A stretch of 32,147 nucleotides of DNA from an uncultured Bacteroidales bacterium (GTDB lineage: Bacteria > Bacteroidota > Bacteroidia > Bacteroidales > Muribaculaceae). Position 1 is the first letter of the stretch; the number at the start of each line of letters is the position of its first letter. Positions 1,174-31,906 of this stretch are shown here, piece after piece. The notes under the pieces were generated by a model. It was not told where the DNA came from. It saw nothing but the letters and a program-made list of their open reading frames with translations, and searched no databases. The position numbers were made by a program, and so were the translations under genes. Where the stretch lies: NCBI GenBank assembly GCA_947175575.1, contig CAMWNG010000018.1, positions 1-32,147 of the forward strand, written 5' to 3'.

Positions 1174-1995
1174 ATGAACAAAAAACAAAGGCTTTCGCAT
1201 GCGAAAGCAGTGGTTCGAGGAGCTATTTGCGGAGACATCATAGGTTCTTCCTACGAATGCCATCCTACAAAAGATTATCATTGTAAGTTAAACACTAAGT
1301 TTAGTAGATTTACCGATGATACGGTTTGCACAATAGCCATAGCAGAAACTCTAATATTCAATCAGTCTTTTGCTGTCACAATGCAGAAGTGGTGTCGTAA
1401 ATTTCCTAATGTAGGTTACGGTGGTAGATTTAAAAATTGGATTTTTTCACACGTTCCTGAAGATTACGGGAGTTATGGTAATGGCTCCGCAATGAGAGTT
1501 AGCCCGGTTGGAGCTATTGCATCTTCTCTTGAAGAATGTATAGAATTAGCGAAAGAATCCGCTGTAATAACTCATAATCATCCAGAGGGAATTAAAGGTG
1601 CTCAGGCTGTGGCTCTTGCAATATTCATGTCGTTGGAAGGGGTCTCTAAAGATGAGATTCGTGACGAAATCGAGAAGAAATTTGATTACGATTTATCAAG
1701 AAATTATTCCGAGATTCAGACCGACTATAGATTTCAAGTCAGCAGCCAGAAAAGCGTGCCGGAAGCCATCATATGCTTCCTGACAAGCAGTGATTATGAA
1801 TCATCTGTCCGTCTTGCGGTTGCATTAGGTGGAGATGCAGATACCCAGGCGGCTATTGCGGGAAGCATAGCGGCTGCATATTACGGAGAAATTCCCGATT
1901 ATATACTCTCGGATTGTATGGCAAAATTACCTGAAGATATAAAAGCCATTATCCGAAAATTTGATTATGCTTTGGAATTGAAATATGGAGAATAA
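1174..1995 (+). CDS. ADP-ribosylglycohydrolase (ARH/DraG family)
   Basis: The protein has 273 residues, somewhat short for the family, with no signal peptide, so it should be cytosolic. ARH/DraG enzymes remove ADP-ribose from proteins, nucleic acids or small molecules using two divalent metal ions. The metal-binding elements are visible: GDIIGSSYE near residues 20-28, FTDDT at 46-50, a GNGSAMRVSP loop at 102-111, THNHPEG at 133-139 and GGDADTQ at 219-225. All key acidic residues are in place, so it is probably active. The last 11 bases overlap the next gene, a Nudix hydrolase, which suggests coupled translation and a shared pathway. The substrate is unknown. Base composition is AT-rich compared with the large operon downstream, consistent with horizontal transfer. 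Confidence 0.9.
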   Translation: MNKKQRLSHAKAVVRGAICGDIIGSSYECHPTKDYHCKLNTKFSRFTDDTVCTIAIAETLIFNQSFAVTMQKWCRKFPNVGYGGRFKNWIFSHVPEDYGSYGNGSAMRVSPVGAIASSLEECIELAKESAVITHNHPEGIKGAQAVALAIFMSLEGVSKDEIRDEIEKKFDYDLSRNYSEIQTDYRFQVSSQKSVPEAIICFLTSSDYESSVRLAVALGGDADTQAAIAGSIAAAYYGEIPDYILSDCMAKLPEDIKAIIRKFDYALELKYGE

Positions 1996-2677
1996 AAAAT
2001 ATTGTTATAAATATCCACATCCTGCGGTAACAACCGATTGCGTAATCTTTGGATTTGATGGCACAAATCTCAAAGTATTGCTTGTTCTGAGAGGTATCGA
2101 GCCTTATAAAGGAAAATGGGCCCTTCCCGGAGGTTTTTTGAACACTGATGAATCCGCAGAAGAGGGCGCTTTGCGAGAATTGAAAGAAGAAACAGGAATT
2201 GAATCTACATATATCGAACAATTTCATACTTATTCGGAGCCAACCAGAGATCCGCGCGAAAGAGTTATCACGATAGCATATTTGGCTTTGGTAAAACTTC
2301 AAGAGGTCAAGGGTGGTGATGATGCGGATGATGCCCGCTGGTTTCCTATCAACAATGTACCACAGTTAGCATTTGATCACGATGTAATTTTACGTGATGC
2401 ACTTGCTCGTCTTAGGGAAAGGATACATTTTCATCCAATTGGGTATGATTTGTTGGCTGATAAATTTACTCTCAAAGAGCTACAAACTCTTTATGAAGCA
2501 ATCCTCGGAGTACATTTTGATCGACGCAACTTTGCAAAAAAGATGCTTCATCTTGATATTCTGACGGAGCTTGATGAAACAATTTGGCCAACGCCAAAAA
2601 GGGCCGCAAATCTTTATCAATTCAATATTGAAAAATATCAGGAACTAAAACAGCGTGGTTTCCGTCTTGAATTTTAA
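1985..2677 (+). CDS. Nudix hydrolase with NrtR-like C-terminal winged-helix region
   Basis: The protein has 230 residues. The Nudix domain covers about residues 12-140, and the Nudix box from G50 to I72 is complete (Gx5Ex7REUxEExGU form, with REL and EE present), so pyrophosphatase activity is likely. The C-terminal part, about 150-230, with FTLKELQTLYEAILG, RRNFAKKM and a Gly-rich end, matches the winged helix of the NrtR/COG4111 family. In NrtR proteins this architecture is a repressor of NAD genes that senses ADP-ribose, often with a decayed Nudix box; other members are ADP-ribose pyrophosphatases. Here the intact box and the overlap with an ADP-ribosylglycohydrolase favour an enzyme acting on free ADP-ribose or a related compound, possibly with a regulatory role as well. 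Confidence 0.88.
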   Translation: MENKKYCYKYPHPAVTTDCVIFGFDGTNLKVLLVLRGIEPYKGKWALPGGFLNTDESAEEGALRELKEETGIESTYIEQFHTYSEPTRDPRERVITIAYLALVKLQEVKGGDDADDARWFPINNVPQLAFDHDVILRDALARLRERIHFHPIGYDLLADKFTLKELQTLYEAILGVHFDRRNFAKKMLHLDILTELDETIWPTPKRAANLYQFNIEKYQELKQRGFRLEF

Positions 2678-2723
2678 CCCTATACTTCTACAATTACAGT
2701 ATGAAATTATCTGACAAGGTGGT

Positions 2724-3197
2724 ATGAATATCGTATTTCTTGATTTTGATGGCGTAATGGATACTGTCGCGTATGATATGTATCTTGTGAAGAATGGGCT
2801 TCCGGAGTGTGACGATAAAGGCCGACCGGTATTTGATCCAGAATGTATTGAATGTCTAAGAATAATAATAGCGGAAACAAACGCAGATGTTGTTGTTACA
2901 TCTGACTGGAAATATATTGATAAGTACGAAGGACTTCTTCAGATGTGGAAAGATCGAAATATGCCCGGCTTTTTAACAGATGTAACTCCAAATGTGAGTA
3001 AGCATAGAGGTGATGAAATTGATTTATGGCTAAAAGAGTGTAAAATTGATTGTAACTATGTCATAATTGATGATCTTGATGAGTCCAATTTTAATTTTCA
3101 CCAATTAGAACGACTTATTGTGGTAAATCCGGCGGTTGGTTTAGACCATAATGCCGCTGAACGAGCCATTAGTATATTAAATCGGCCGTTAGCATGA
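2724..3197 (+). CDS. HAD-fold protein, similar to HAD domains of RNA-repair proteins
   Basis: The protein has 157 residues. Motif I is FLDFDGV with D7 and D9, motif II is VVVTSDW near residues 56-62, a basic KHRGDEID segment follows at 93-100, and the acidic motif IV is VIIDDLDES at 113-121. This compact, cap-poor layout is that of the small HAD domains found alone or in Swiss-army-knife RNA-repair proteins, which act as nucleic-acid-end or small-molecule phosphatases. It starts 46 bases after the Nudix stop and is probably co-transcribed. With its neighbours it could process products of ADP-ribosylation or of NAD-dependent 2'-phosphate removal from RNA. Family call is fairly secure; substrate is inference. 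Confidence 0.75.
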   Translation: MNIVFLDFDGVMDTVAYDMYLVKNGLPECDDKGRPVFDPECIECLRIIIAETNADVVVTSDWKYIDKYEGLLQMWKDRNMPGFLTDVTPNVSKHRGDEIDLWLKECKIDCNYVIIDDLDESNFNFHQLERLIVVNPAVGLDHNAAERAISILNRPLA

Positions 3198-7560: not shown

Positions 7561-7775
7561 TAAGGAATTCTTGGATTTCGTCCCACAATCCTAAAAATTA
7601 TGACATGTCCTTGACATTGTCATATACTCGCATGTCCTTACACAACCGGTCTAATCTAATTTTATTAGGGAAAGCCGTAATCCACGTATTACGGAAAACC
7701 GTAATAAAATTACACCGATAACCGCCTTTAAGTGTAAAATATTGGTATAATAATTGCATAATAAAATATATTTTG
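7561..7775. other. Region upstream of the large operon with inverted CCGTAAT half-sites
   Basis: No gene is seen. CCGTAAT occurs at 7675-7681 and 7699-7705, and its inverse ATTACGG at 7688-7694, so each outer copy can pair with the middle one. A direct repeat CATGTCCTT lies at 7604-7612 and 7631-7639. The half-sites are about 50-80 bases before the promoter at 7753-7783, a reasonable place for an operator. They could also form alternative hairpins in RNA read through from the MmcQ gene. Confidence 0.45.
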
Positions 7776-7783
7776 TAACTTTG
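7753..7783 (+). promoter_or_regulatory. Promoter of the kinase/FHA/PP2C/AAA operon
   Basis: ATTG at 7753-7756 and TAACTTTG at 7776-7783 are 19 bases apart, a close match to the Bacteroidota promoter. No comparably good promoter was noticed before the following genes, which are nearly back to back, so this one may drive the whole 13-kb unit. The transcript start is expected near 7790. Confidence 0.65.
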
Positions 7784-7789
7784 CACAAA

Positions 7790-7945
7790 GCTACCTACTG
7801 ACGGAGCATTCGCGCTCCCACGTAAAGACAGCTTTTTGACGGTTGGAAACGTCCCTGCAAGTACCAACCGGCATATACCGATTTCTTCGAGGATGGAGTT
7901 CCCTGTTTCCTCGCTATATAACCAAAACCGATCATCGTTAATAAA
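7790..7945 (+). promoter_or_regulatory. Structured 5' leader of the large operon
   Basis: About 155 bases separate the predicted transcript start from the first ATG. Three hairpins can be drawn: GGAGC/GCTCC (7803-7807 with 7814-7818), CGGTTGG/CCAACCG (7840-7846 with 7864-7870) and CGAGGA/TCCTCG (7888-7893 with 7908-7913). All are perfect stems of 5-7 pairs. No known riboswitch is recognised. It may be a control element for the operon. Confidence 0.4.
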
Positions 7946-9124
7946 ATGATAAAAAAATTCTTGTTACTCATCATAATCGCCATTCTCGGGATTTCCTCAA
8001 CCGCGTCAGCTAACAAGGCATATAAAACCATTTCCAAAACGGCTCTTTACGAACTTAACGAAAAAGGAGCAAGACAGCAGACCCTGTGCGAGATTCAGAA
8101 GGGTGATACGGTATATGCCACCTCGGAAACTGATGCCTACATAGCCAAAAACGAAGGCAACCGGCTCAGATACATCCCTGCGGAATACGGAGGACGCAAA
8201 GGTATGGCAGACTTTTCAATGCTTTATCCCATAAAACTTTCTCCGACAGACACCCTCCGCTATGTCCATGATTCAGCTATCAAGGACCGTACGGCTGCAG
8301 AGCGGTTTCTTGTTCCGGCCATGGACCGCGCCATCAACATAACCCCGGGGCCGGCCACATGGCTCATCGCCGTGCTTATCACCCTGGCATGCACCATCCT
8401 GTTCCTGGCCCTGAGCTGGTACCGGAATCCTTCGATGCTCTGGCTTTATCTGGCGGTGGCATCGCTTGTGGCCATGTCTGCGAGTGAGGTAATGTTTATA
8501 CTCAGTTTCCACAATCATGTGCTGTGGTTCATCATTCCGTCGCAAGTCGGAGGATGGGGACACACCATCTTGAATTTCCTGCTCATGGCCGTAATAGTGA
8601 CAGCTCAGGCTCTGGCACTCGCCGGCGTGTGGGTCATGGGGCTCACAGGCAAAAACAAGCGGCACGAAGGCGAGGATATCCCCGTATGGCTGTCCTGTAT
8701 GTCATTCTGGCCCATTCCTCTCGGTCTGGCACTGATCGTAATGACCTGGTGTGACAAAGCCGACATTCCGGGAAGCACCTATCTCATAGCAGTCGGTACT
8801 CTGCTGATTCCGGCTGTATGCGGTCTGGTATATGGATTCATGCACCGACGCTTCACCGAGGGCATCGTCTTCCCGCTGGCGCTCGTGGCAGGGGGCCTCG
8901 GCCTGGCGTGTTCGGTGATGATACTTGGCATGGTGATTATCCTGGTGGTGGTTGTGGCGGTCGTAGTGATCTTCCTGGGCGCTACGGCGCTTTCATTCCT
9001 CGGCACAGCGCTGGGACTGGAGCGCACAAAGATCGTTACCGATGACGGACGAGTGATCGGAGGTACTAAAAATCTTGACGGCACTGTATCGGGCGATGAC
9101 GGGCACAAATACAAGGTCTATTGA
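7946..9124 (+). CDS. Polytopic membrane protein with N-terminal periplasmic domain (operon gene 1)
   Basis: The protein has 392 residues. A signal peptide (about 1-22) is followed by a periplasmic domain to about residue 132 that looks SH3-like (ALYELNEKGARQQTLCEIQKGDTVY). About seven membrane helices follow, near 138-158, 163-187, 207-232, 247-268, 277-297, 306-328 and 329-353, and then a hydrophilic tail rich in Asp and Gly. The loop around 181-202 carries E-V-x3-L-S-x-H-x4-W-x3-P-x2-V-G, also present with the same spacing in operon gene 5, so the two are probably paralogs. No known family is recognised. As first gene of the operon it may be the envelope part of the system, possibly a sensor or channel; this is inference. 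Confidence 0.8.
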   Translation: MIKKFLLLIIIAILGISSTASANKAYKTISKTALYELNEKGARQQTLCEIQKGDTVYATSETDAYIAKNEGNRLRYIPAEYGGRKGMADFSMLYPIKLSPTDTLRYVHDSAIKDRTAAERFLVPAMDRAINITPGPATWLIAVLITLACTILFLALSWYRNPSMLWLYLAVASLVAMSASEVMFILSFHNHVLWFIIPSQVGGWGHTILNFLLMAVIVTAQALALAGVWVMGLTGKNKRHEGEDIPVWLSCMSFWPIPLGLALIVMTWCDKADIPGSTYLIAVGTLLIPAVCGLVYGFMHRRFTEGIVFPLALVAGGLGLACSVMILGMVIILVVVVAVVVIFLGATALSFLGTALGLERTKIVTDDGRVIGGTKNLDGTVSGDDGHKYKVY

Positions 9125-9126
9125 AT

Positions 9127-10065
9127 ATGGCAGCCGACAAACAGCAGAATATCAAGACCTCGAAATCCGAGGGTAAACCGCGTCAGATCTGGCGGCCGAA
9201 ACCGTTGAAGGATAAGTCGGCATCCGTGGAGTGTCCTTACTGCGGAGTAGCCGTAAAGCCCACCTATGTCATCTGTCCCCACTGCGGACATTCCCTCACC
9301 CCCGGAAAATGTTCGTTCTGCGGCGCACCGATGAAGCCCACCGCCAAATTCTGCACCAAGTGCGGACAGACTAAGGACGGAGTCACATGTCCAGCCTGCG
9401 GCACTCTGAATTCGCGCAACTTCTGCCGAAAATGCAATGCGCCTCTTACCCCTATGGCTCAGAAGGCCCTGGAGGCCGCCCAAAACGACCCTGCATTCAA
9501 GGCTGTGCAGGCAAAGGCCCGGGAACTCGCCGAGCTTCATGAACAGATCGAAAGTCTGAAAAACACACAGCCTCCCGTCCGGCTTTCGGAAGCCGATAAG
9601 GCTCTGCTTGACGAATACGCCGACGTTCTCGGGGCTATAGGCGCGACGACACCGAGACCGGCGCCCCGCATGGCCGACCCTACCCCCTCCCGGCCGCAAT
9701 ATGAGGAAAAATGCATGAATCTCGACGATATAATGGACGCTTACCGTCAGAAGGCCGAGGAAATGAACGCGGCACTTGCCGCCCTGACTCCTCCCCCCGA
9801 TTTCACTCCGGAGCAGCAGCGCGACTACTATTCCGCACGCAAAGTCCTCAACACAGAATATACATACACCACCCACGTAGACATGTCCGGATACTCCCCG
9901 AGTGTCTGGTGCTGCAATTACTGCGGCTGCCTGCATAACTGCCCTTCTGAATGTGCCGAACCGCAGCTCGGCGGCACATGGATCTATGTCTCCCCGGAAG
10001 AATATATCGAACAGAACAGTACAGTGACCGTCGACGTGTCATACAAACTCGTAGACGCCAAATAA
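9127..10065 (+). CDS. Multi-zinc-ribbon protein (operon gene 2)
   Basis: The start is the ATG at 9127, two bases after the previous stop; the TTG at 9121 overlaps that stop and is unlikely. The protein has 312 residues. After a basic N-terminus it has three CxxC-pair zinc ribbons between about residues 36 and 115 (CPYCG/CPHCG, CSFCG/CTKCG, CPACG/CRKCN), then a helical Glu-rich stretch, a Pro-rich linker (TTPRPAPRMADPTPSRP), a second helical part, and a late Cys cluster (CCNYCGCLHNC) near residue 260. It has no membrane segment. Zinc ribbons recur in the AAA protein and the FHA protein of this operon, so they may be the assembly handles of the complex. Function unknown. Confidence 0.8.
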   Translation: MAADKQQNIKTSKSEGKPRQIWRPKPLKDKSASVECPYCGVAVKPTYVICPHCGHSLTPGKCSFCGAPMKPTAKFCTKCGQTKDGVTCPACGTLNSRNFCRKCNAPLTPMAQKALEAAQNDPAFKAVQAKARELAELHEQIESLKNTQPPVRLSEADKALLDEYADVLGAIGATTPRPAPRMADPTPSRPQYEEKCMNLDDIMDAYRQKAEEMNAALAALTPPPDFTPEQQRDYYSARKVLNTEYTYTTHVDMSGYSPSVWCCNYCGCLHNCPSECAEPQLGGTWIYVSPEEYIEQNSTVTVDVSYKLVDAK

Positions 10066-10108
10066 AAATATAATTACGTATATATAAACCGATAAAAATC
10101 ACAATAAA

Positions 10109-10282
10109 ATGAAAAGTTTCATCAATTGGTGCTGGACAGGATTCGGCACAGGAATGACAAGCTTCCGCGCTTTAGGTCTTGCAATCATTACACTCCTCAT
10201 CGGAGTTATCGCTCTTTATTATGTAATCCGTTGGATTGTCCGCCTCTTCCAGAAGAACAGCGTGCAGACCGCTGTCGATTAA
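10109..10282 (+). CDS. Small single-pass membrane protein, 57 residues (operon gene 3)
   Basis: An ATG at 10109 opens a 57-codon frame ending with TAA at 10280-10282. The sequence starts MKSFINWCWTGFGTGM, has one hydrophobic helix at about residues 22-45 (LGLAIITLLIGVIALYYVI), then a basic RWIVRLFQK stretch and a short polar tail. The gap between the neighbouring genes would otherwise be about 250 bases in a very compact operon, which supports a real gene. The basic residues after the helix suggest that the C-terminus is cytosolic. It could be an accessory subunit of the membrane kinase encoded directly downstream. No homolog is recognised. Confidence 0.7.
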   Translation: MKSFINWCWTGFGTGMTSFRALGLAIITLLIGVIALYYVIRWIVRLFQKNSVQTAVD

Positions 10283-10314
10283 CGGAATAGCAACATCCAC
10301 TCCACCACATAATA

Positions 10315-13300
10315 ATGGCAGACAACGATAAAACCATAGGATCGGGCCGACGTCGCAATAATGGCAACGACGACGCCCACGCCACCGGTCGCGCTCCGCG
10401 AGGTAATAACGACGATGCCCACGCCACCGGTCGGGCTCCACGAGGCAATAACGACGACGCCCACGCCACCGGCAAAGCCGGCGGCCGTCTCAGCCCGTTT
10501 GAACAGAAAGGGAACGCCGACCTGCGCAACCGTCTGTCGGATAGTGCCGGTACAATCTCGTCAAACGAATGGCCCGATGAATTCGTGCTCGACGGTGTAA
10601 AATATAAGAACGACGGTGTGCTGTCGGCTTCATCCGGCGAGGCCATCGTCTTTACCGTCAGCCGCGGAGGCAAGAAATATGCCTTGAAGCTATATTATTA
10701 CGACCCCGACCATCGGCCCAACCATGTCCTGCTTGAAAAAATCCGCAAACTCGGCGGTAGCGGACTTCTGGTCAACATCGTAAGCCACGGCGAATGGGAC
10801 AATCCCAACCGTCCGGGCGAGAAAAATGACTATGAACTGATGGATTTCTGCGAGGGCGGATCTCTTGACGGCGTGATTCTCGAGGGCGATGAAAGAGCTC
10901 TGGCCGAGGTGGCCGTAAGAATGGCCTCAGCCATCGACTTCCTCGCCAAACACGGCATCCTGCACCGCGATATCAAGCCTGCCAATTTCTTCTATGCCGA
11001 TAAGGAAAGGACACAGATCGTACTCGCCGATTTCGGCATATCGGTGGAATGTGCGCCCGGCGAATTCGTAAAAATCGACGAGATGCGCTCGCCCGTCTAT
11101 GCTGCTCCGGAATTCTATACCAATGTTCCCGGCGAACCGACCGAGGTCGGGGTAGAGAGCGATTATTTCTCGCTTGGTGTGGCATTGCTCTGCCTGTGGA
11201 TGGGCAAAGACCGGCTCACAGCCAACGAATCGCAGCTGCTCCGATCAAAACTCAACGAGACCCTCCCGATGCCCGACAATATGTCGGATCACATGGTGTC
11301 GCTCATCAAGGGCCTTACACGCCTGAAGATGAACGACCGCGTGACTTTCGAGGACATCAAACGATGGGTAAAAGGTGAGACACTCTCCACGGGAGAATCC
11401 GCTGCTGTCAATTCTGATTTCAGCGTGGTTTTCAATTCATCCAAGAATCAGGTGGCGAACTCTCCGGCAGAACTCGCGCATTTTCTTATCGAAGACAAAG
11501 CCCTCGGCAAGAAATACATCTATTCCGGCCGCGTGACACGCTGGCTCGAGGACACCAACCGCAACGAGCTTGCCGTAAACGTAGAGGAAATTGCCGAAAA
11601 CATCTATCCCTCCAATCAGGACGCGGGCCTCATGGCTGTGGCATATCTGCTCGACCCGGCCATGGACTATGTGACACCAGACGGCCAGCATTTTACTAAT
11701 CCGGCCGATATAGTCGCATATGTGCTGTGCAACCCCGGAATCATGAGCCAAGAGGTTGTCGACCCGGCCTCCAACCTCATGATCTATCTTTCGGCTCTCA
11801 AGCTCGACAAAACTGTCGCCACTATGAGGGATTATGTAGGCTCGATGGATTTCAGGATCGTGTCAGAGGAGGAGATCAATAACTTCATCGCCTGCTTCTA
11901 TCTGGCCATGCTGATTGATCCCTCGCTGCCGTGCCCCCTGTCCGTAAGCGACGGTTGGCAATCAGTCGACAGCGTCGAGGAGGCTATGGAGGTTTTCCAT
12001 AAGGAAGGTGATCTTGACCTCATAAACAAAGTGATGCTCTGCAGCCAGCCCTTCATTCTCTGGCTCGCAGCCCGTAATCCGGCTCTTGCAGGACGTGTGC
12101 GTATGCTGCACGACAACGATACGGAGGACGTGGAAAGTCCCTACTACAATTCCTATTCGCCTTACCGTATAGCATACGAACTCATGCCGGAGGCTGACTT
12201 CGACTTCAACACTGACCCGAATGCCAAGGATCGTGTTTACACCATCCCCGAAGTAGGCGGTTATCTGAACCGTATGCTCATAAAATACTCGCTCGGATGG
12301 GGTGATGCCGAAAATTTCGAAAAGATTTTCTGCCGCATGGATAATGACCCGCTGGGCGATTATCTCCGCGCACGCGGCGAACATTACATGACCTTCCTGT
12401 CATGGAACAGATACTGCATGGACGACGAGTCTGAGGACAACACCGGAAAGCCGGGGCCCTACGATCTTGTGATCGGAGCATATAAGTCAACAGCCGGTTT
12501 CCTCGGTCACGCACCCAAGTATCTGCTTGGCGATCATGAACTTCACTCGCCGGACGACCTCAAAACCTTGCCGAAAGAGATGGTCGCCGAGGCCATCGCA
12601 GGTAAAGACCGTGAGTATCCCGATGACTCCGGAAAACCTGTGGCATGGCTCGACGCATGGCTCACGGTATTCTTCCAGGAAGATCCTAAACTCGATCTGT
12701 CCGCCAAGTTCACCTACGAGAAAAAGACGGCAGAATACGTTGATCTGATCGCCGAATACGCTCCGGACAACTATTATGTCAAACGCTACCGCAAGGCGTT
12801 GTCCCGCATCGACACCGCTGCCGTAGATCTCGATAAGAGTGAAAACAAGATAAAACGCAAACGCATTTTCTTCCTTATCGCTGCCGGTATCCCGACACTG
12901 ATAATGCTTATCTGCTCCTGGTTCTTCGATCTTCCTGACGGCAATCCTATAAAGGGGCATTTCTGGTCTACATATTGGATATGTGCCGTGTGCGCTTTTG
13001 TCGCTTTCATAGCCATGTCGGGGTTCTGGGGAGCAATCATTCCGGGTGCTGTAGGAGGTCTCGTGTTAGCGGGATTCGCTTGGGCCGGATTCGCTTGGTT
13101 CCCGTCGATCCTATACCTTATTGCGGGATTGATTCTCATAATCGCGGCATTCCTTGCATGCAGCGGCATGTTTACGCGCAAGAATGTAAATGACGGTCTG
13201 AAAATCGAAGCCAACACATTCCAGTACCGTCAGCTTGACGCCCTGTATTTCGCCTACCGCGACGATTCCGATAATCTCGATACGGCCGTCACCGATCTCG

Positions 13301-13977
13301 CCCTCGTGCAGGGTTCGGAAGATGAAACAGTACGCGAGAACATAGGCTTCGCCGGCTGGATCTGGACTCCGCTGGTGTGGATGATGTTCCTCCTCTGGTT
13401 CTTCGCCACACCTCAGATCAGCGGCAGCGCGGCATGGGTGCCCGGTGCGGGGACAGAAAAGTCCATCCCCGGAAAATGGGTGATCGGCAAGTGGGATGCA
13501 CGATATGCCGGCGGTTCCACACGTATCGTCTGCAACATCGATTCGGTGGTGGACGGCAAGGTCATCTACGGCACTATGGTTATCGCAGGCCAGACTCCCG
13601 TCGAAGCTCAGGGTCACGTGTCGAGCGAAAACGACTCACTTCCAAAGTATTTTCACTTCTTCCCTCGGACGGGCGATACCCAAAAACAATGTATCACGGC
13701 CGAATATGACAAAAATCAGAAGAAGATGACCGGTTACTACTACGACCGCAAAGGCATCATGCACCAGATTGAATTTGTATCGACCCCGCTTGACTCTCCG
13801 GCTCCGGCCAAAGCTTCGGCGGCTAAATCTCAAAAAGCATCCAAACCGGCGAAAAAAGCCGAGAAAAAGCCTGTCGAACAGCCTGTGACTCCGGCAGACC
13901 AGCCTGCTGCGGAACCGACTGACGCTTCCGCGACCGAGGACGCGCCTTCGCACACCTTCTGGGAAGACACCATGTAA
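10315..13977 (+). CDS. Large membrane-anchored Ser/Thr protein kinase (operon gene 4)
   Basis: The protein has 1220 residues. Residues 1-55 are polar with a KTIG motif (6-9) and 14-residue repeats. The eukaryotic-like kinase domain covers about 85-365: ALK with K125, a candidate helix-C Glu at E141, catalytic loop HRDIKPAN at 217-224, DFG at 239-241 and APE at 264-266, so it should be active. The glycine loop is weak (SASSGEAIVF). A long helical, mostly acidic region follows to about 845. Five membrane helices are seen near 851-872, 884-903, 905-926, 929-950 and 1014-1034. With the kinase in the cytosol, the odd number puts the C-terminal beta-rich domain (1040-1165) and its Lys/Ala/Pro tail in the periplasm. 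The natural partners are the FHA reader and the PP2C phosphatase of the same operon. Substrate not known. Confidence 0.92.
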   Translation: MADNDKTIGSGRRRNNGNDDAHATGRAPRGNNDDAHATGRAPRGNNDDAHATGKAGGRLSPFEQKGNADLRNRLSDSAGTISSNEWPDEFVLDGVKYKNDGVLSASSGEAIVFTVSRGGKKYALKLYYYDPDHRPNHVLLEKIRKLGGSGLLVNIVSHGEWDNPNRPGEKNDYELMDFCEGGSLDGVILEGDERALAEVAVRMASAIDFLAKHGILHRDIKPANFFYADKERTQIVLADFGISVECAPGEFVKIDEMRSPVYAAPEFYTNVPGEPTEVGVESDYFSLGVALLCLWMGKDRLTANESQLLRSKLNETLPMPDNMSDHMVSLIKGLTRLKMNDRVTFEDIKRWVKGETLSTGESAAVNSDFSVVFNSSKNQVANSPAELAHFLIEDKALGKKYIYSGRVTRWLEDTNRNELAVNVEEIAENIYPSNQDAGLMAVAYLLDPAMDYVTPDGQHFTNPADIVAYVLCNPGIMSQEVVDPASNLMIYLSALKLDKTVATMRDYVGSMDFRIVSEEEINNFIACFYLAMLIDPSLPCPLSVSDGWQSVDSVEEAMEVFHKEGDLDLINKVMLCSQPFILWLAARNPALAGRVRMLHDNDTEDVESPYYNSYSPYRIAYELMPEADFDFNTDPNAKDRVYTIPEVGGYLNRMLIKYSLGWGDAENFEKIFCRMDNDPLGDYLRARGEHYMTFLSWNRYCMDDESEDNTGKPGPYDLVIGAYKSTAGFLGHAPKYLLGDHELHSPDDLKTLPKEMVAEAIAGKDREYPDDSGKPVAWLDAWLTVFFQEDPKLDLSAKFTYEKKTAEYVDLIAEYAPDNYYVKRYRKALSRIDTAAVDLDKSENKIKRKRIFFLIAAGIPTLIMLICSWFFDLPDGNPIKGHFWSTYWICAVCAFVAFIAMSGFWGAIIPGAVGGLVLAGFAWAGFAWFPSILYLIAGLILIIAAFLACSGMFTRKNVNDGLKIEANTFQYRQLDALYFAYRDDSDNLDTAVTDLALVQGSEDETVRENIGFAGWIWTPLVWMMFLLWFFATPQISGSAAWVPGAGTEKSIPGKWVIGKWDARYAGGSTRIVCNIDSVVDGKVIYGTMVIAGQTPVEAQGHVSSENDSLPKYFHFFPRTGDTQKQCITAEYDKNQKKMTGYYYDRKGIMHQIEFVSTPLDSPAPAKASAAKSQKASKPAKKAEKKPVEQPVTPADQPAAEPTDASATEDAPSHTFWEDTM
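10366..10479 (+). repeat. 42-base tandem repeat in the kinase N-terminus
   Basis: Units lie at 10366-10407, 10408-10449 and a partial unit at 10450-10479. Each encodes NDDAHATGRAPRGN; the third diverges after ATG(K). Only a few synonymous changes separate the units, so the expansion is recent and copy number may vary between strains. The repeats are hydrophilic with Asp, His and Arg and probably unstructured. Confidence 0.85.
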
Positions 13978-13992
13978 ACCTGAATCGTAAAA

Positions 13993-14877
13993 ATGAAGAC
14001 CCGTATAATAATATTATTCTCCCTGCTGCTGTGCAGCCTCGCAATGAGCGCGCAGAAATATGTGGTGAACGGCAGAAAAGACAAAACCCGTGTGGTAGAA
14101 TATCACATGGTGGACGGACACTGGACTTATGTCAAAGGCGCCCGTGACATATATGTTCCGAAAGGTTACGAGTTCGAGGCCGTGGCTCCGGTTTCCAAAG
14201 ACACTATCGTGATGCCATACGAAGGAAAATTCTACCGGGTGGTATTCCCGGATAAGGAACTGAAACTGGTCGACGATATGGGTAAGGACTCTCACCTGGG
14301 CTTCCGTAACAAGCTGAGCAACACCGTCATCGGCAAATGGTACGCTACCGGCCGGCCCGCCGTCATAGGTCTTATTCTGTCGGCTTGCGCTCTTCTTGCT
14401 CTGGTAGTGGCTCTTTTCCGCGAAAATGTTCCGGCGATGTTCCGGGCGTTATTCGTGGCCTCTATGTGTGGCATATCGCTGCTCGAGGTTGGAGCCTTCC
14501 TCTCCCTGCACACCGACGCCTTCTGGTGGGTGAATCCCGATGATGTAGGCTATCTCGTAGCCATAATGACGCTTATTCCTTTCTCGGTAACGGTCGCCAT
14601 GCAGGTGTTCGCCCTCAAGGTGTACAATATGATGGGCAACTACGAAGGTGCTTTGAATGCGATCGTCAAAATCATTCTCGTAATCGGAATCGTACTCTCG
14701 TTTATCTTCGCCATCGCGGTCATTATGAACTTCCTGTTCGCCGCATGCCTGTTGATCGGAGCCGGATTCCTGTTTTCGGGCATGTCATACAAAGACAGTG
14801 CCGGCAACACTATACACAGCAGTGCGTTAGGAACTTATAAGACCGATAAATACGGCAACACAACTCATATCCATTGA
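13993..14877 (+). CDS. Polytopic membrane protein related to operon gene 1 (operon gene 5)
   Basis: The protein has 294 residues. A signal peptide ends near SLAMSAQ (about residue 21), a periplasmic beta-rich domain reaches to about 118, and about five membrane helices follow near 122-142, 150-172, 186-208, 221-246 and 247-263, with a polar tail (KDSAGNTIHSSALG). The stretch 165-186 (E165, H173, W178, P182, V185-G186) matches the motif of gene 1 residue for residue in spacing, and both proteins end in a short hydrophilic tail with D-x-G-x-x-I character. I take them as diverged duplicates. No known family is recognised. It lies between the kinase and the AAA protein, 15 and 3 bases away. Confidence 0.78.
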   Translation: MKTRIIILFSLLLCSLAMSAQKYVVNGRKDKTRVVEYHMVDGHWTYVKGARDIYVPKGYEFEAVAPVSKDTIVMPYEGKFYRVVFPDKELKLVDDMGKDSHLGFRNKLSNTVIGKWYATGRPAVIGLILSACALLALVVALFRENVPAMFRALFVASMCGISLLEVGAFLSLHTDAFWWVNPDDVGYLVAIMTLIPFSVTVAMQVFALKVYNMMGNYEGALNAIVKIILVIGIVLSFIFAIAVIMNFLFAACLLIGAGFLFSGMSYKDSAGNTIHSSALGTYKTDKYGNTTHIH

Positions 14878-14880
14878 TTA

Positions 14881-17427
14881 ATGAAAACCTGTCAGTCATG
14901 TCATAATGAAAACCGCGATGTGGCGCGGTTTTGCCGGTTCTGCGGCACCAAGCTCCAGGAAGAAGTAGTCCCCAAAGGCCACGACACCAAGAAGGCTCGA
15001 AAAAAGAACGACGCTCTCGACAGGCTCGTGGGACTCGAAGGACCCAAGGAACAGATCCGAGAACTCGTCTCCACAGTTAAGGCACTGGTCAAGCAGCGTG
15101 GCCGTGAGGTGCTCAACACCCTCAACACCAACATCCTCATCACCGGCCCGTCCGGCTCCGGTGTTTCGGCTCTGCACTTCGCCACAGGCGATTATATGTG
15201 CGACGAGGGAATATACGCTGATGATGAATGCGAACCCTTCAACCCTCTGACCATCGACACCCTTAATCTTGCCGAAAATCCGCTGACCTGCATCATGGTG
15301 GATGATACCCAGAAGATGATGCCCGATGATATCAACGACGATCTTCTGGGCTCGCCGATGGAATATGTGTTCAAAAACGCGCTTGCCGCAAGAAATCTCA
15401 AGGACGAGCGGCTCGCATTGATCATAGCGGGCGACAAAAGACTTCAGGAATACATCGATGCACATCCTGAACTTAAGGGATTGTTCGCCCTGAACATAAC
15501 GCTCCCCGAACTCACTCCCTCGGAAGTGGCGGACATTTGTGAGGATATGTTGGGAAATACATATAAGACCAAATTGTCGCCCGAGGCAAGGGAAAAGCTT
15601 TGCCGAGTGTTCAACTATGAACGACGCCATTCCGAGAAATTCGGCAACGCACACCTCGCGTCAATAAAGGTGAACGAACTCATGATGGCGGCTACGCGCC
15701 GAATGAAAGGCAAAACCGTGTCAGTCATTGAGGCCGAGGACGTCTCAGGCAAAGAATATGTGCCCAAGACGCTCGACGAGGTGATGCAGGAATTCGACAA
15801 ATATGTCGGTGTGGATAAAATCAAGAAAACCATGACCGGCATCGTCGATTCCATCCGGTCTTTCCAAAAACTTCATCCCGACCGGACATACGAACTGAAA
15901 GACCACTACCTGTTTGTCGGAAATCCCGGCACCGGCAAGACCACTATGGCAAGGGTGTTTGCCGATGCCCTGAGTGCGATGGGTATCCTTTCGTCGGGTC
16001 AGTTGATTGAGATCGCACCCAAAGACCTCAGAGGTCAGTATGTAGGACATACGGGTCCATTGGTTGACGCCGCATTCGACAAAGCCATGGGAGGCGTCCT
16101 TTTCATTGACGAGGCATACAACATGTGGAACGGTGCCGATGATCAATTCGGTAATGAAGCCGTAACGGTACTGCTTAAGAATATGGAAGACCGTAAGGGC
16201 AAGTTGGTCGTAATCCTTGCAGGTTATCCCCGTGAAATGGAGTATTTCATACATAACGCCAACCCGGGTCTGGAGTCACGATTTACGGAACCGGTCGATT
16301 TCCGTGATTACGATGGTGCGGAACTCACGGAGATTGCCCGACGGATGATAAAATCACAAGGCTACACGCTTGATGAGAACGCCGATCAGATGATTGACAA
16401 GTTCTTTGAAAAGATGTATGTGGGACGTCAGAAGGATTTCGGTAATGCACGCGATGTAAGAAATGCTGTCGACAAGGCCATAAAAGCTCAGAACAGCCGT
16501 GTTCAGCAGGCTCTGAGAGAGCATGGCTTTGACAAATCGCAGGAATTCGTTCTGACAATGTCAGATATTACCGGAAACGAGAAGCCCCCGAAGACTGTCG
16601 ATGAAGTTATCGCATCCATGGATGACCTCATCGGTATGACCGACATAAAGCAGGAGATCCGCAAACTGGCCAATGTGGCCATGGTGAACCGCATGCGCAT
16701 GGAACGCGGACTGGGCGCGGCGACACTTCAGCCTGTAAACATCATCCTTACCGGTAATCCGGGTACAGGCAAGACCACCATAGCCAAACGCCTCGGCGAG
16801 GTGCTCTACGCCGCAGGGGTGCTGAACACCGACAAGGTGGTGGAACGCGAGGCGAAGACCATCCTCTCGAGCTATGTGAACGCTTCCGGCCAAAATATGG
16901 ACAAGGCGGTCGACGAGGCAATGGGCGGAGTACTCTTTATCGACGAGGCCTACAACCTGCTCCCTCAGCCCGGAAGCATGAACAACACCGGCAACGAAGC
17001 CCTCGACGCTCTTATGACACGCATGGAGAACGACAAGGGCAAATTCGTGGTGGTGATCGCGGGCTATAAGGATCGCATGGCCGAGCTTATCCGTCGTGGC
17101 AACCCGGGTTTGATGAGCCGCTTCAACAAGTCGTTCCATATCGAGGACTACGATGCCGACTCTCTCACCGAGATTTTCAAGATGAACGTGAAGAAGCGCA
17201 AGTTCACCCTCACACCGGAAGCGGAAGAAGCGGTGAAAAGACGCATACGTGATATGGTGGCCAACAAGGGTTTGCACTTCGGTAACGCCCGCGAGGCGGT
17301 CAATCTGCTGAACGAGGTTGTCGAGATGCAGGGTAACCGTATCGCCGCCGACACCAGTATAATAGACAGTAACCCCGACGCTCTCACAATCATCGAGGCA
17401 GTCGATATTCCTCAGCTTTTTGAATAA
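14881..17427 (+). CDS. Zinc ribbon plus three AAA+ modules, CbbX/EccA/SpoVK type (operon gene 6)
   Basis: The protein has 848 residues. A zinc ribbon opens it (CQSCHNENRDVARFCRFCG, residues 4-22). Module 1 (about 45-290) has a decayed Walker A, GPSGSGVS at 89-96, without the ATP-binding Lys, and a VDDTQK Walker-B-like segment, so it probably does not hydrolyse ATP. Module 2 has GNPGTGKT at 347-354 and VLFIDE at 406-411. Module 3 has GNPGTGKT at 625-632 and VLFIDE at 684-689. Both active modules carry the NPGL-x-SRF element expected of CbbX-like AAA+ proteins. Relatives remodel Rubisco (CbbX) or serve type VII secretion (EccA). Here it sits in a kinase/FHA operon without Rubisco or secretion genes, so it is probably a remodelling ATPase controlled by phosphorylation. 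Confidence 0.9.
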   Translation: MKTCQSCHNENRDVARFCRFCGTKLQEEVVPKGHDTKKARKKNDALDRLVGLEGPKEQIRELVSTVKALVKQRGREVLNTLNTNILITGPSGSGVSALHFATGDYMCDEGIYADDECEPFNPLTIDTLNLAENPLTCIMVDDTQKMMPDDINDDLLGSPMEYVFKNALAARNLKDERLALIIAGDKRLQEYIDAHPELKGLFALNITLPELTPSEVADICEDMLGNTYKTKLSPEAREKLCRVFNYERRHSEKFGNAHLASIKVNELMMAATRRMKGKTVSVIEAEDVSGKEYVPKTLDEVMQEFDKYVGVDKIKKTMTGIVDSIRSFQKLHPDRTYELKDHYLFVGNPGTGKTTMARVFADALSAMGILSSGQLIEIAPKDLRGQYVGHTGPLVDAAFDKAMGGVLFIDEAYNMWNGADDQFGNEAVTVLLKNMEDRKGKLVVILAGYPREMEYFIHNANPGLESRFTEPVDFRDYDGAELTEIARRMIKSQGYTLDENADQMIDKFFEKMYVGRQKDFGNARDVRNAVDKAIKAQNSRVQQALREHGFDKSQEFVLTMSDITGNEKPPKTVDEVIASMDDLIGMTDIKQEIRKLANVAMVNRMRMERGLGAATLQPVNIILTGNPGTGKTTIAKRLGEVLYAAGVLNTDKVVEREAKTILSSYVNASGQNMDKAVDEAMGGVLFIDEAYNLLPQPGSMNNTGNEALDALMTRMENDKGKFVVVIAGYKDRMAELIRRGNPGLMSRFNKSFHIEDYDADSLTEIFKMNVKKRKFTLTPEAEEAVKRRIRDMVANKGLHFGNAREAVNLLNEVVEMQGNRIAADTSIIDSNPDALTIIEAVDIPQLFE

Positions 17428-17975
17428 TGAAAGAGATTGAATGTCCCGCATGCGGCGAGATGATTCCCGCCGACAGCAAATATTGTGACATGTGCGGCGC
17501 CGAGTTGCTCGAATGTGTGAACTGCGGTACGCTCGGCACCGACATGTTCTGTCCGGAATGTGGCAAACCCATGGTGGCCCGCAAACCCGACGCTTCCCCT
17601 GAAACCACACAACCGCAACCGGTCAAACCTGCTCAGAATGATGATGACGGAGGCAAAACCATCGGACGCCCTGCCGCTCGCAAGGATATAGTATTGAAAG
17701 CACGCAAGGGCGGATTCATCCTGCGTCCCGAGGATGAGGCCGTGATAGGCCGCAAAGATAGCCCCTATTCCGACATTTTGGCCGACTGCGACCTAATATC
17801 TCGCCGTCACGGCAAGTTCTTGAAACGTGGCCGCGACTGGTATATCATGGATTTCGGCAGTACAAACGGAACTTACGTTAACAACCGTGAAGCTGCTCCC
17901 GACACCCCCGTGAAAATCAACGCCGGAGATGTGGTCGACATAGGCACATATATTTTTGATGTGATCGAGCGATGA
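17427..17975 (+). CDS. Zinc ribbon-FHA domain protein (operon gene 7)
   Basis: The protein has 182 residues. Two CxxC-pair zinc ribbons lie in the first 50 residues (CPACG/CDMCG and CVNCG/CPECG). A Pro/Gln-rich linker is followed by DDDGGKTIGRP with T78, and then an FHA domain at about 88-180. The phosphopeptide-binding residues are present: GR at 108-109, SRRHGK at 125-130 and DFGSTNGTYVN at 142-152. FHA domains bind phospho-threonine, so this is the reader for the operon kinase. The linker KTIG also occurs at the kinase N-terminus and may be a phospho-acceptor that binds the FHA domain in cis or in trans, as with the N-terminal Thr of mycobacterial GarA. Start codon overlaps the previous stop (TAATG). 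Confidence 0.92.
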   Translation: MKEIECPACGEMIPADSKYCDMCGAELLECVNCGTLGTDMFCPECGKPMVARKPDASPETTQPQPVKPAQNDDDGGKTIGRPAARKDIVLKARKGGFILRPEDEAVIGRKDSPYSDILADCDLISRRHGKFLKRGRDWYIMDFGSTNGTYVNNREAAPDTPVKINAGDVVDIGTYIFDVIER

Positions 17976-18703
17976 TTACATCTTTGGCATATGAGGCCGT
18001 CTGCGACATAGGCTGTAAACGCTCGAACAACGAGGACATGGCCTACGCCTGCGGTCGCGTCGTGCGTGACGGATGTCTCGAAGGAGAAGTTGAGGTTTCA
18101 CCCGAGTCGGTCGTAGCGTTTGCCGTGGCCGACGGAATGGGCGGCTACGAAGGTGGAGAAGTTGCCTCGGAAATTGTCTCGCGTTCGTTCGCAACCTTCA
18201 TAAAAGGTCTTGAAGAAAAAGGACGTGATAATATCCTGATCGCTATAAAAGACTGGGCCCGCGAGGCCAACAGTCTGGTGCTCGAGACCGCCGGACTGCG
18301 GGAAGAACTCGCGGAGATGGGCACTACTTTTGTCGGCCTCATACTTTGCGATTCACGGCTATGGCTGATAAACATAGGCGACAGCCGGTGCTACCGGTTC
18401 AGACAGGGTGTGCTGAAACAGATGTCTACCGACCACTCCGAACGCGAGCGCACCGGCAACCGGAATGCCCCTTCCAACCTCATCTACAATTACATGGGCA
18501 ATGTACCTGAGGACTTTATATCCGATGTAACGCGCCTCGAACCACTCGAGGGCGATGTATATCTGCTCTGCTCTGACGGTTTGAGCGACCTTGTTTCCGA
18601 TGACGACATCGAAGTAGCCATCGGGTCTGCCGGACGCATGGTTGAACTGGCCAAAGAGGCAGGTGGTCGAGATAACATAACAGCTGTGCGCATCCGGTTA
18701 TGA
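17972..18703 (+). CDS. PP2C-type Ser/Thr phosphatase (operon gene 8)
   Basis: The protein has 243 residues, the usual size of bacterial Stp/PppA enzymes, with no membrane segment. The metal-binding and catalytic motifs are complete: RSNNED at 17-22, ADGMGG at 53-58, MGTT near 114, NIGDSR at 134-139, SDGLSD at 201-206 and GGRDN at 231-235. It should remove phosphate from Ser/Thr of the kinase, the FHA protein or their targets, using Mn or Mg. It overlaps both neighbours by ATGA, so its amount is tied to them by translational coupling. Confidence 0.93.
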   Translation: MITSLAYEAVCDIGCKRSNNEDMAYACGRVVRDGCLEGEVEVSPESVVAFAVADGMGGYEGGEVASEIVSRSFATFIKGLEEKGRDNILIAIKDWAREANSLVLETAGLREELAEMGTTFVGLILCDSRLWLINIGDSRCYRFRQGVLKQMSTDHSERERTGNRNAPSNLIYNYMGNVPEDFISDVTRLEPLEGDVYLLCSDGLSDLVSDDDIEVAIGSAGRMVELAKEAGGRDNITAVRIRL

Positions 18704-19515
18704 ATCTTTCCGAGTTGAAAAAAGAAATCGCACGCATAGTGCGCGAGGTGGACGATTCTGTCGATGAGCGCCTCGAAAAAGCCCTCGCATTATGTCCGGA
18801 AGAAGATGAAGCGGATGCGGTAGAAAAGGATATTATCATTTATTCCGCACTTGTCGACCTGTTGTGGCGGGAATGTCCCGACCATAGCCGCGATCTTACC
18901 CTGCTGCAGCTCTATGCGTTGCTGGCCGAAGCCTACGACGACGCTGACGATTATCGCGCTATGGAGGCTGTGGCTCAGGGTGTACTCCGGCTTATGCGCG
19001 ACAGGATGACACCGGCAGATGTGTACCGTGAGACCATTCCGCGCATTGCGGCGGCCATCGGTAATTCCGTTTATAATCACGCGTTGTATGAAATTCTTCT
19101 CCTTTATGTCAAATGCGTTCTTGCCGAGATGCCCGAAGACGTATTGGTCAAACCACACGTGAAAAAACTGCTCAAGCTCCACCTGCTCCTTGAATATTCC
19201 GAATGGCGCGAACGAGAATGGTCAAAGGATTTTCAGAATCAGATGAGCATGCTGTTTTCGGCTGAGGAACTGATGCACATAATCGCCAATCCGAAAATCG
19301 GACATCTGAGACGCGACCCTGTGGAATATACCCGTGCTTGGGAAGACATCTATTACGATGTGGAAGACGAGTTGACAACCCGATTCCAGAACGCCCCTCG
19401 CCAAAGAGGATTATGCCATCACATCTGGAGCGTGAAGCGCGAGTTGCTGAAGGATCAATACGGAATTGACTGGCGATCGCCCGCACAGATGAATTCACGT
19501 GTAAGATTTGACTGA
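18700..19515 (+). CDS. Helical protein of unknown function (operon gene 9)
   Basis: The protein has 271 residues and no signal peptide or membrane segment. It is almost fully helical by composition, with acidic N-terminal part (IVREVDDSVDERLEKALALC) and TPR-like helix pairs around LLQLYALLAEAYDDADDYRAM (about 69-90) and later. The C-terminal third is more basic with Trp and Arg (WSVKRELLKDQYGIDW). No family is recognised. Overlap with the phosphatase gene by ATGA and a 2-base gap to the Sel1 gene place it firmly in the system, perhaps as adaptor or scaffold. Confidence 0.72.
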   Translation: MNLSELKKEIARIVREVDDSVDERLEKALALCPEEDEADAVEKDIIIYSALVDLLWRECPDHSRDLTLLQLYALLAEAYDDADDYRAMEAVAQGVLRLMRDRMTPADVYRETIPRIAAAIGNSVYNHALYEILLLYVKCVLAEMPEDVLVKPHVKKLLKLHLLLEYSEWREREWSKDFQNQMSMLFSAEELMHIIANPKIGHLRRDPVEYTRAWEDIYYDVEDELTTRFQNAPRQRGLCHHIWSVKRELLKDQYGIDWRSPAQMNSRVRFD

Positions 19516-19517
19516 AA

Positions 19518-20348
19518 ATGGAAACTCTGACAGACCGTTTCATCAAGACAATCGCCGAGAATGACAGCGCCTCCACGGCCGTCGGCGAAATTGTCCGACT
19601 GGTATTCGAAAAACCTGACACTCCGGAAAAATTCGGACTGCGCGCCTATCTTTTCCATGAAGGTATCGGAGTGCCTGCCGATATGGAAATGTGCGTTCGA
19701 CTCGCTGAAAAAGCGGCTTTCGAGTATGGTGACCCTCTCGGATATTTCCTGCTCGGATACATGGCCGACGGAACTGATGATCGCCGAGCCCTCGAATTCT
19801 ATGAGAAATGCGCCGGAACTAAGAGTCGGTGGGGCGAACAGGCGCGCTTATGGCTGGGCCGGTATTTCGCGGATATACACCGCGGAAACGATATTGCTCT
19901 CGGACTTGAATATTTCCGTTCTATCGCCGAGGACAATTCTGAGGCAGCCGGATGGCTCAGCGATTACTACTGGAGTCTTGTGGTACCGGATTATCTCAAT
20001 GAAGACGATTGGAAATCAGAGCTTTTCAGATGGACATCATCCGCCGCCCGCCTGGATCCGGCCGAATATTCGTGGCGGCTGGGACTCTTGTATGCCGACG
20101 GCATCGGGTGCGAAAAAGATACGGACAAGGCGGTGGATTATCTGGAGGAAGCCTGCGACTACGACGATTGGCGCGCCGCACGGTCTCTGGCCGACATGCT
20201 CTCCGACGTCCTTAAAAATAATCCGGATATGAGTCCGGAAGAAAAAGCCGAATGTGAATCGGCCATCCGCGAGTGGAACGCCTGGGCTGACGAACAGCGT
20301 GAGGCGGAAATAAAGTCCGAACATGACCGCTCGGTCGAAGAAGATTGA
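19518..20348 (+). CDS. Sel1-like repeat protein (operon gene 10)
   Basis: The protein has 276 residues. Sel1-type repeats are visible at about 38-80 (HEGIGVPADMEMCVRLAEKA), 75-105 (YFLLGYMADG), 118-140 and 185-215 (RLGLLYADGIGCEKDTDKA). Such repeats form helical solenoids that bind other proteins and often act as adaptors in signalling or in effector pathways. No signal peptide is seen, so it is probably cytosolic. The acidic tail ends SEHDRSVEED. It is tightly packed between genes 9 and 11 and probably works as a scaffold of the system. Confidence 0.8.
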   Translation: METLTDRFIKTIAENDSASTAVGEIVRLVFEKPDTPEKFGLRAYLFHEGIGVPADMEMCVRLAEKAAFEYGDPLGYFLLGYMADGTDDRRALEFYEKCAGTKSRWGEQARLWLGRYFADIHRGNDIALGLEYFRSIAEDNSEAAGWLSDYYWSLVVPDYLNEDDWKSELFRWTSSAARLDPAEYSWRLGLLYADGIGCEKDTDKAVDYLEEACDYDDWRAARSLADMLSDVLKNNPDMSPEEKAECESAIREWNAWADEQREAEIKSEHDRSVEED

Positions 20349-20351
20349 ATC

Positions 20352-20999
20352 ATGAAACCGATATATCTCATCCTTGAAGCTCCGGAATCCGGAATTTCTC
20401 AATGCGCATCACGATTCTGGGGCAATCCCGATCTGCCTGAAAACACCCCTTATCCGATGTACATAGACGACGAAGGCGATGAATTCCCCTATTGGTTCAT
20501 ATGCCAGATAAATCTCGAAGAACTCGCGTCCTATGATCCGGACAATCTTCTGCCTCATAAAGGGCTGCTGTCTTTCTTCGCAAAGATTGACCGTTATATG
20601 GACAGCTTCGCCGCCACAGATTGTATTTCAGGATATGTCAGCGGCGCGGACGCTGTGAGGGTACTCTATTTCCCGGCGTTGGACAATATGCGTGAGGTCG
20701 TGCTGGTGGATGACGATGACAATCCGGTGACACCTAGCGAACTCAGCATCCGGTTCAGTACAAACAATGTGGAAAACGGGGATGAACACGAATTGTTCGC
20801 CCCTCCGACTCATCGCGAATGGGAAAACTGGGATTCACCTTTCGAGGATAGGATAATCCTTCTCCAGATCGATTCTTTCAGCGGCGAGGACTTCGAGCTG
20901 AACTTTATGGATTGCGGCGTACTGGATCTTCTGATTTCACGTGAAGATCTTAAAAAACGTGATTTTTCCGACGTGCGAGGCATTGTCCTCTCCACCTGA
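20352..20999 (+). CDS. DUF1963/YwqG-like protein (operon gene 11, last)
   Basis: The protein has 215 residues. The opening GNPDLPENTPYPMY, the FICQINLEEL strand and GLLSFFAKID are typical of the DUF1963 (YwqG) fold, a predicted cytosolic ligand-binding protein of unknown activity common in stress and effector-immunity loci. A late acidic LQIDSFSGEDFELNFMDCG segment and the terminal ISREDLKKRDF also fit. Its stop lies three bases from the stop of the converging MsrAB gene, leaving no room for a separate terminator. It is the last gene of the unit; a link to the phospho-signalling genes is by position only. Confidence 0.78.
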   Translation: MKPIYLILEAPESGISQCASRFWGNPDLPENTPYPMYIDDEGDEFPYWFICQINLEELASYDPDNLLPHKGLLSFFAKIDRYMDSFAATDCISGYVSGADAVRVLYFPALDNMREVVLVDDDDNPVTPSELSIRFSTNNVENGDEHELFAPPTHREWENWDSPFEDRIILLQIDSFSGEDFELNFMDCGVLDLLISREDLKKRDFSDVRGIVLST

Positions 21000-30546: not shown

Positions 30547-31425
30547 TTATACTGCGTCTATTGGTCTATCAGGATTAAAGTTTAAAAAGAAATTCTTTCT
30601 GTGTTTTAGTAAATTCGTAATCTCGCTACACATAAAGACACAGTTAAAATCGTATATTGGTTTACTTGTACCAATATTGCTAGGGCGAGTTAATTTGAGT
30701 TCCAAATTATAGTAATTTATTAATGTTTCATCTTCTGTACCATCGGCAGCGAAAAGAAATAGGTATTTACATCCCACCGTTTCTCTAACTTTTTGAAGTA
30801 TCGGAACTATGTAATACCAAAATACCACTTTCCCAATTGATTGTGGAAGATTATATTCTCTCCATAATTCTTTTGCCTTTTCATTAGAGCAAAAGTGTAC
30901 CAATTCAATTCCTGAATGAGTATTTGAAACACGTATTATATGCTTATTTGGATCCTTAGATTTATCGCCCAATAAAAATTTAAGAATATTTTGTTTAGTG
31001 TTTGTTTGCTGTGAAATGAAACGCTTTATTTCATCATCTGCAATATCTCTCCCAGCTCGAAATTGTTCTAATATAATAGCCGCTAAATCTTCCTCTTCTT
31101 TATTTTTCGGATTAGAAATTAGGCGTTTTGCAAGGGCATAGACTTTTTTCCTTTCTTTGATTTGCTCCTCATCAAGATGTTGGTAAAGAGCTCCACATTT
31201 TAAAGAGAAAAAGAAAAGTGGAATTCCATCCTTGGTTTTAATAATGTAGTATGCCGTAGAACCTTCTGCATCTTCATCCCAGGCTGTATTACGCAAACTA
31301 TCAATTAGATTTGGATTCCTTGTATTCTCGAAGGAAAAAATTAAAGACTTATGCTCATCCTTTGAAGATAATCTATGACATAACAAACTCTTAAGACAAT
31401 CACTTTGTCGTTGTGTTATCTCCAT
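30547..31425 (-). CDS. Putative toxin partner of the Panacea antitoxin; possible GNAT-like C-terminus
   Basis: The protein has 292 residues, cytosolic, AT-rich gene. The start is one base after the stop of the upstream Panacea gene, so translation is coupled. The N-terminal half is charged and helical (LDEEQIKERKKVYALAKRLI). Residues about 165-250 (GIELVHFCSNEKAKELW, GKVVFWYYIVPIL, CKYLFLFAADG, LINYYNLELKL) look like the core of a GNAT acetyltransferase, with a hydrophobic strand and a final YY before the last strand, but no clear acetyl-CoA R/QxxGxG/A loop is visible. With a Panacea (DUF4065) partner, the most likely role is the toxin of a type II pair. The catalytic activity is not certain. 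Confidence 0.6.
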   Translation of the reverse strand: MEITQRQSDCLKSLLCHRLSSKDEHKSLIFSFENTRNPNLIDSLRNTAWDEDAEGSTAYYIIKTKDGIPLFFFSLKCGALYQHLDEEQIKERKKVYALAKRLISNPKNKEEEDLAAIILEQFRAGRDIADDEIKRFISQQTNTKQNILKFLLGDKSKDPNKHIIRVSNTHSGIELVHFCSNEKAKELWREYNLPQSIGKVVFWYYIVPILQKVRETVGCKYLFLFAADGTEDETLINYYNLELKLTRPSNIGTSKPIYDFNCVFMCSEITNLLKHRKNFFLNFNPDRPIDAV

Positions 31426-31426
31426 A

Positions 31427-31906
31427 TTATTGAGTGCAATTACCTAAATGAGAAATGAAATATCGTCTTAATTTAATTCGGTTTGCATCAACCTTAATAT
31501 CTTCAATTGATATGGGATTATTGCATGCATCAACGGGGCCGAGTCCCTTACGCGCATTTTTCCAAGAATATTCCCCATGTGATAATCGACTAAGACTCCA
31601 GGAGTCTTTATGAGCATATTGTGAAAAAACCTTATCAAATATCGGAATATACTCATCCGCTATAGTGCAATCACCATATTGAGGAATTGCACCGAAAAAC
31701 TTTATATAATCTCGAATAGCAACAAGGACGGGTCCATACTTCCATGCGTAAAAGAGTTCGCGAAATAGAGGCCGACCAATTTGAATAAGTGATTCACGTT
31801 GGGCAAAATAGAGTAGCTTATGTAGTTTCATTTCATCAATTGAAACTCCATACTCATGTCTGTATCTAGAAGCTATATACTTCGTGAAGTCAATTGCTGT
31901 ATACAT
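31427..31906 (-). CDS. Panacea-domain antitoxin (DUF4065, SocA/GepA-like)
   Basis: The protein has 159 residues. The Panacea signature is clear: MKLHKLLYFAQRESLIQIG, PLFRELFYAWKYGPVLVAIR, followed by YSWKNARKGL and the helical end. Panacea proteins act as antitoxins against many unrelated toxins, and SocA of Caulobacter is an adaptor for proteolysis. Antitoxin first and partner next, one base apart, is the usual order of such pairs. A strong promoter lies directly upstream. Confidence 0.88.
   Translation of the reverse strand: MYTAIDFTKYIASRYRHEYGVSIDEMKLHKLLYFAQRESLIQIGRPLFRELFYAWKYGPVLVAIRDYIKFFGAIPQYGDCTIADEYIPIFDKVFSQYAHKDSWSLSRLSHGEYSWKNARKGLGPVDACNNPISIEDIKVDANRIKLRRYFISHLGNCTQ

Follow-up and report, generated by a model that had tools for sequence, protein, structure and literature searches.

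Our analysis of a 32,147-nucleotide stretch of a Muribaculaceae metagenome assembly (contig CAMWNG010000018.1; this whole stretch is here called the window) points to a phospho-signaling operon built around what seems, from its encoded domains, to be a conserved five-gene switch featuring a membrane kinase, a reader protein and a protein-remodeling motor. In the reading that we favor as somewhat more likely than not, the tail of the membrane kinase would be a string of threonine tags, the FHA partner, often with the same tag, would be built to read them, and the pair could be wired to the AAA+ motor. The operon may even typify a class of Bacteroidota AAA+ machines, so far unnamed, that are switched by phosphorylation, with a lineage-specific threonine barcode on both the kinase and its FHA adaptor and the tail array of the former and the motif of the latter changing together; we hold this to be possible but short of probable. 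The source assembly (2.36 Mb in 107 contigs) is 91.8% complete, and the named relatives likewise come from metagenome assemblies of Muribaculaceae, Bacteroides, Prevotellaceae and other Bacteroidales.

The evidence for such a switch starts with the window itself, where KTIGR occurs in the linker of the FHA protein and KTIG in the kinase tail, whose coding DNA harbors a tandem repeat (10366-10472; 2.5 copies of a 42-bp unit). At 16 of 27 loci, a threonine-containing 4-mer is common to the kinase tail and the FHA protein. The operon FHA protein is the sole FHA match in half of the 20 carrier genomes, including that of the window; kinases are commoner, with three matches in the latter genome and one in G045. 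The named domains are borne out by Pfam and NCBIfam searches, and the kinase, FHA and PP2C proteins all display their catalytic or binding signatures, in agreement with the kinase, FHA, PP2C and AAA+ calls of a first-pass annotation made from the sequence alone. C-terminal to its catalytic domain, the kinase is predicted to have a helical domain (predicted local distance difference test, pLDDT, near 90), a membrane part, an eight-stranded barrel and a disordered end. Hydropathy indicates four or five membrane segments; were there five, with the kinase inside, the modeled barrel would lie outside the cell.

Several observations weigh against the proposed switch. No threonine 4-mer is common to the tail and the FHA protein at 11 of the 27 loci, and at five of them (L056, L120, L122, L126 and L127) the tails are clearly of the KSDT/SDTG/SNTG type with an FHA protein devoid of the motif; moreover, the single common 4-mer of L005 (HKTI) differs from its own repeat. 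Hence, phosphorylation of an adaptor copy is not universal. The tails of L013 and L055 lack repeats, while those of L009, L112, L118 and L125 have repeats that are reachable by shuffling (21-60 of 500 shuffles). The motif match was also first spotted by eye and then tested on identical data, which, along with the low-complexity nature of the linkers and the unmatched loci, favors the idea that the shared motif is a by-product of such linkers and common descent with no docking function; we nevertheless regard this as improbable. Fold searches recovered no significant match for the later kinase domains (best E-value 0.1, the weak matches including lipocalin-like barrels) or for M1, a membrane protein encoded at the start of the operon (best E-value 0.02). 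Finally, of the phosphorylation-controlled remodeling machine posited by the first-pass annotation, the kinase, FHA, PP2C and AAA domains stand, whereas the link from FHA to AAA is a putative one, drawn from gene order and common zinc ribbons.

The operon is a run of eleven + strand genes spanning 7946-20999, with -4 to 43 bp between neighbors (Table 1), just as had been described for it. Upstream lies a candidate promoter of the Bacteroides type; a scan for sigma-70-type promoters found eight against 12.5 expected, i.e., no excess. At five loci (L006, L007, L116, L118 and L127), the system is preceded upstream by a TPR histidine kinase together with a LuxR-type response regulator (families checked in L006), which perhaps provide its transcriptional control. 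In the window, the first AAA module no longer has the Walker A lysine (GPSGSGVS), which the four closest relatives aligned retain.

Table 1. Features of the operon and its upstream region; recurrence of accessory genes was counted over 33 loci
Feature	Position	Strand	Remarks
Possible Bacteroides-type promoter	7754..7783	+	Candidate, upstream of operon; TTG then TAACTTTG
M1	7946..9124	+	Accessory; N-terminal hydrophobic (signal-like) segment, SH3-like domain, several transmembrane (TM) helices
Gene between M1 and S1	9127..10065	+	
S1	10109..10282	+	Accessory; 57-aa single-TM protein, present at 7/33 loci
Membrane Ser/Thr kinase	10315..13977	+	Core; Thr-repeat tail, kinase domain, helical domain, 4-5 TM, beta-barrel, disordered end
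Kinase N-terminal tail	10315..10569	+	KTIG plus DAHATG repeat x3
M2	13993..14877	+	Accessory; relative of M1
Zinc-ribbon triple AAA+ protein	14881..17427	+	Core; CbbX/SpoVK/EccA type; AAA1 degenerate, AAA2 and AAA3 intact
Double-zinc-ribbon FHA protein	17427..17975	+	Core; linker motif DDDGGKTIGR; GarA/OdhI nearest solved relatives
PP2C phosphatase	17972..18703	+	Core
HYP	18700..19515	+	Accessory cassette; C-terminal YGIxWxSPxxMNPxVxFD module
Sel1-repeat protein	19518..20348	+	Accessory
DUF1963 protein	20352..20999	+	Accessory; elsewhere often adjoins HYP

As to what the machine acts upon, it might be an envelope-stress or cell-wall regulator, in which some peptidoglycan or surface-polymer enzyme would depend on the AAA+ protein for its activation, in the manner of MurG on SpoVK, with phosphorylation setting the timing. 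This reading, which we hold to be possible but short of probable, is a narrower form of the phospho-switched AAA+ machine and both can hold. The first domain of M1 is a predicted SH3-like barrel (pLDDT 75-87), with SH3 domains, some of them bacterial, topping its fold-search list, and SpoVK (spore_V_K) is the best NCBIfam model for the AAA protein (443.3 against a cut-off of 422.95 bits), although that score is summed over three stretches. According to PMC10659427, SpoVK activates MurG and is a protein of sporulating Firmicutes, whereas the AAA protein of this system is a triple-AAA version from Bacteroidota. Further, cell-wall enzymes were not recognized among the recurrent neighbors. M1 and M2 are relatives, in line with their earlier description as twin membrane proteins. 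Neither is found nearby at 21 of the 33 loci; thus, any sensing by them is not general.

That the operon regulates a machine for secretion or export whose genes lie elsewhere, akin to the type VI or type VII secretion systems (T6SS, T7SS), appears very unlikely to us. The kinase, FHA and PP2C trio does resemble PpkA, Fha and PppA, the FHA protein also scores above the cut-off for Yop-YscD_cpl, an FHA-fold family of the type III secretion system (T3SS), and the AAA protein is EccA-like; however, the latter falls below the EccA cut-off (371 against 466.65 bits). The T6SS sheath protein VipA (PF05591) was found in none of the 20 carriers, while the control matched in E. coli. No secretion machine gene was recognized among the recurrent neighbors, though T3SS, T7SS and the type IX system were not searched for genome-wide; likewise, general domain scans revealed no WXG100 or EssC within the operon, no genome search for them being made. 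Alternatively, the system could be an anti-phage defense, with the kinase as an effector restrained by PP2C and freed by infection and the AAA protein as the sensor. We consider this rather unlikely; defense kinases (MADS, PD-T4-6 and others) gave matches to the kinase domain only and none across the whole protein.

Related and neighboring loci offer further observations. HYP-type proteins with the C-terminal module recur in Muribaculaceae at L155-L175, mostly without the core, with a DUF1963 gene adjoining in 15 of the 21 loci read, as an unfamiliar two-gene cassette. L130 (5911-18206) and L131 (5082-17788), which are from sister genomes, harbor another cluster of a different make-up: three FHA genes, three kinase-like genes and one for PP2C. 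The first FHA protein of the L130 cluster also starts with a zinc-ribbon-like part and carries a KTVR motif. At L058 (G013:C61), a PP2C piece, a kinase, a zinc-ribbon protein and a 1839-aa AAA protein cluster together, perhaps as a distant relative of the system, on a contig with BspA-like leucine-rich and choline-binding-like repeats (by eye) that is probably mis-binned from Firmicutes. SUKH (SMI1/KNR4) genes lie inside or just after the core at L109 (10445-10966) and L113 (9289-10083), members from another class. Elsewhere in the window, genes for an ADP-ribosylglycohydrolase, a NUDIX regulator resembling NrtR and a HAD-like protein (the latter by eye) follow one another (1174-3197, +; 37-43% GC) as a probable NAD or ADP-ribose module, and a SocA/Panacea antitoxin gene (PF13274) adjoins a 292-aa gene of no named family (30547-31906, -; about 34% GC), likely forming a toxin-antitoxin pair.

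With respect to known systems, the T6SS threonine phosphorylation pathway comprises PpkA, PppA and Fha and thus parallels the operon's kinase, PP2C and FHA proteins, but PF05591 was matched in none of the 20 carriers. The TerY-P triad joins a VWA (TerY) gene to a kinase and PP2C. Both this triad and the GAP1-N2-linked kinase/PP2C/VWA genes (PMC7159879) have a kinase, PP2C and zinc ribbon in common with the operon; unlike them, and in line with the first-pass annotation, none of the eleven operon proteins has a VWA or tellurite match among those listed. Zinc-ribbon FHA adaptors under a kinase and phosphatase are also seen in the ArnA/ArnB/ArnC network of Sulfolobus, whereas the operon has a bacterial PP2C, an AAA+ machine and no VWA protein. 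Against the CbbX/SpoVK/EccA clade, AAA2 matches CbbX, AAA3 matches EccA1 and the GY sensor-1 signature is shared; the CbbX model stays below its cut-off (384.8 against 459.25 bits), no operon protein matched a RuBisCO domain in our searches, and the modules here are at least three in tandem, preceded by a zinc ribbon and fixed beside kinase and FHA genes. If correct, our proposal would unite Hanks-kinase/FHA signaling with these chaperones, usually studied apart, and offer a direct route to studying the on-off switching of a dedicated AAA+ chaperone.

Among the papers matched in an open-access collection of 5.39 million, no title or abstract opening describes the combination, in uncultured Bacteroidales carriers or otherwise (subscription papers lying outside this scope), and the nearest paper, PMC7159879, concerns other systems in its excerpted text. 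The proposed docking logic is closest to the actinobacterial PknG-OdhI/GarA circuit, where, according to PMC8546545, a flexible N-terminal kinase extension bears threonine sites and the FHA substrate has its threonine motif outside the FHA domain; the operon FHA domain is itself closest to GarA/OdhI. PknG kinases have a TPR C-terminal domain and, in most, a rubredoxin, neither of which was matched on the operon kinase in domain searches, its helical domain matching no named kind. Were the barcode true, kinase-to-FHA specificity would be a short repeated sequence readable from the genome, so that a cognate pair might be predicted and put to a tail-swap test; each circuit would be shielded against kinases and FHA proteins outside it, and cognate pairs would be swappable parts. 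The parts are already known and the docking logic has precedent; the surprising element is the coupling of tail and adaptor motifs.
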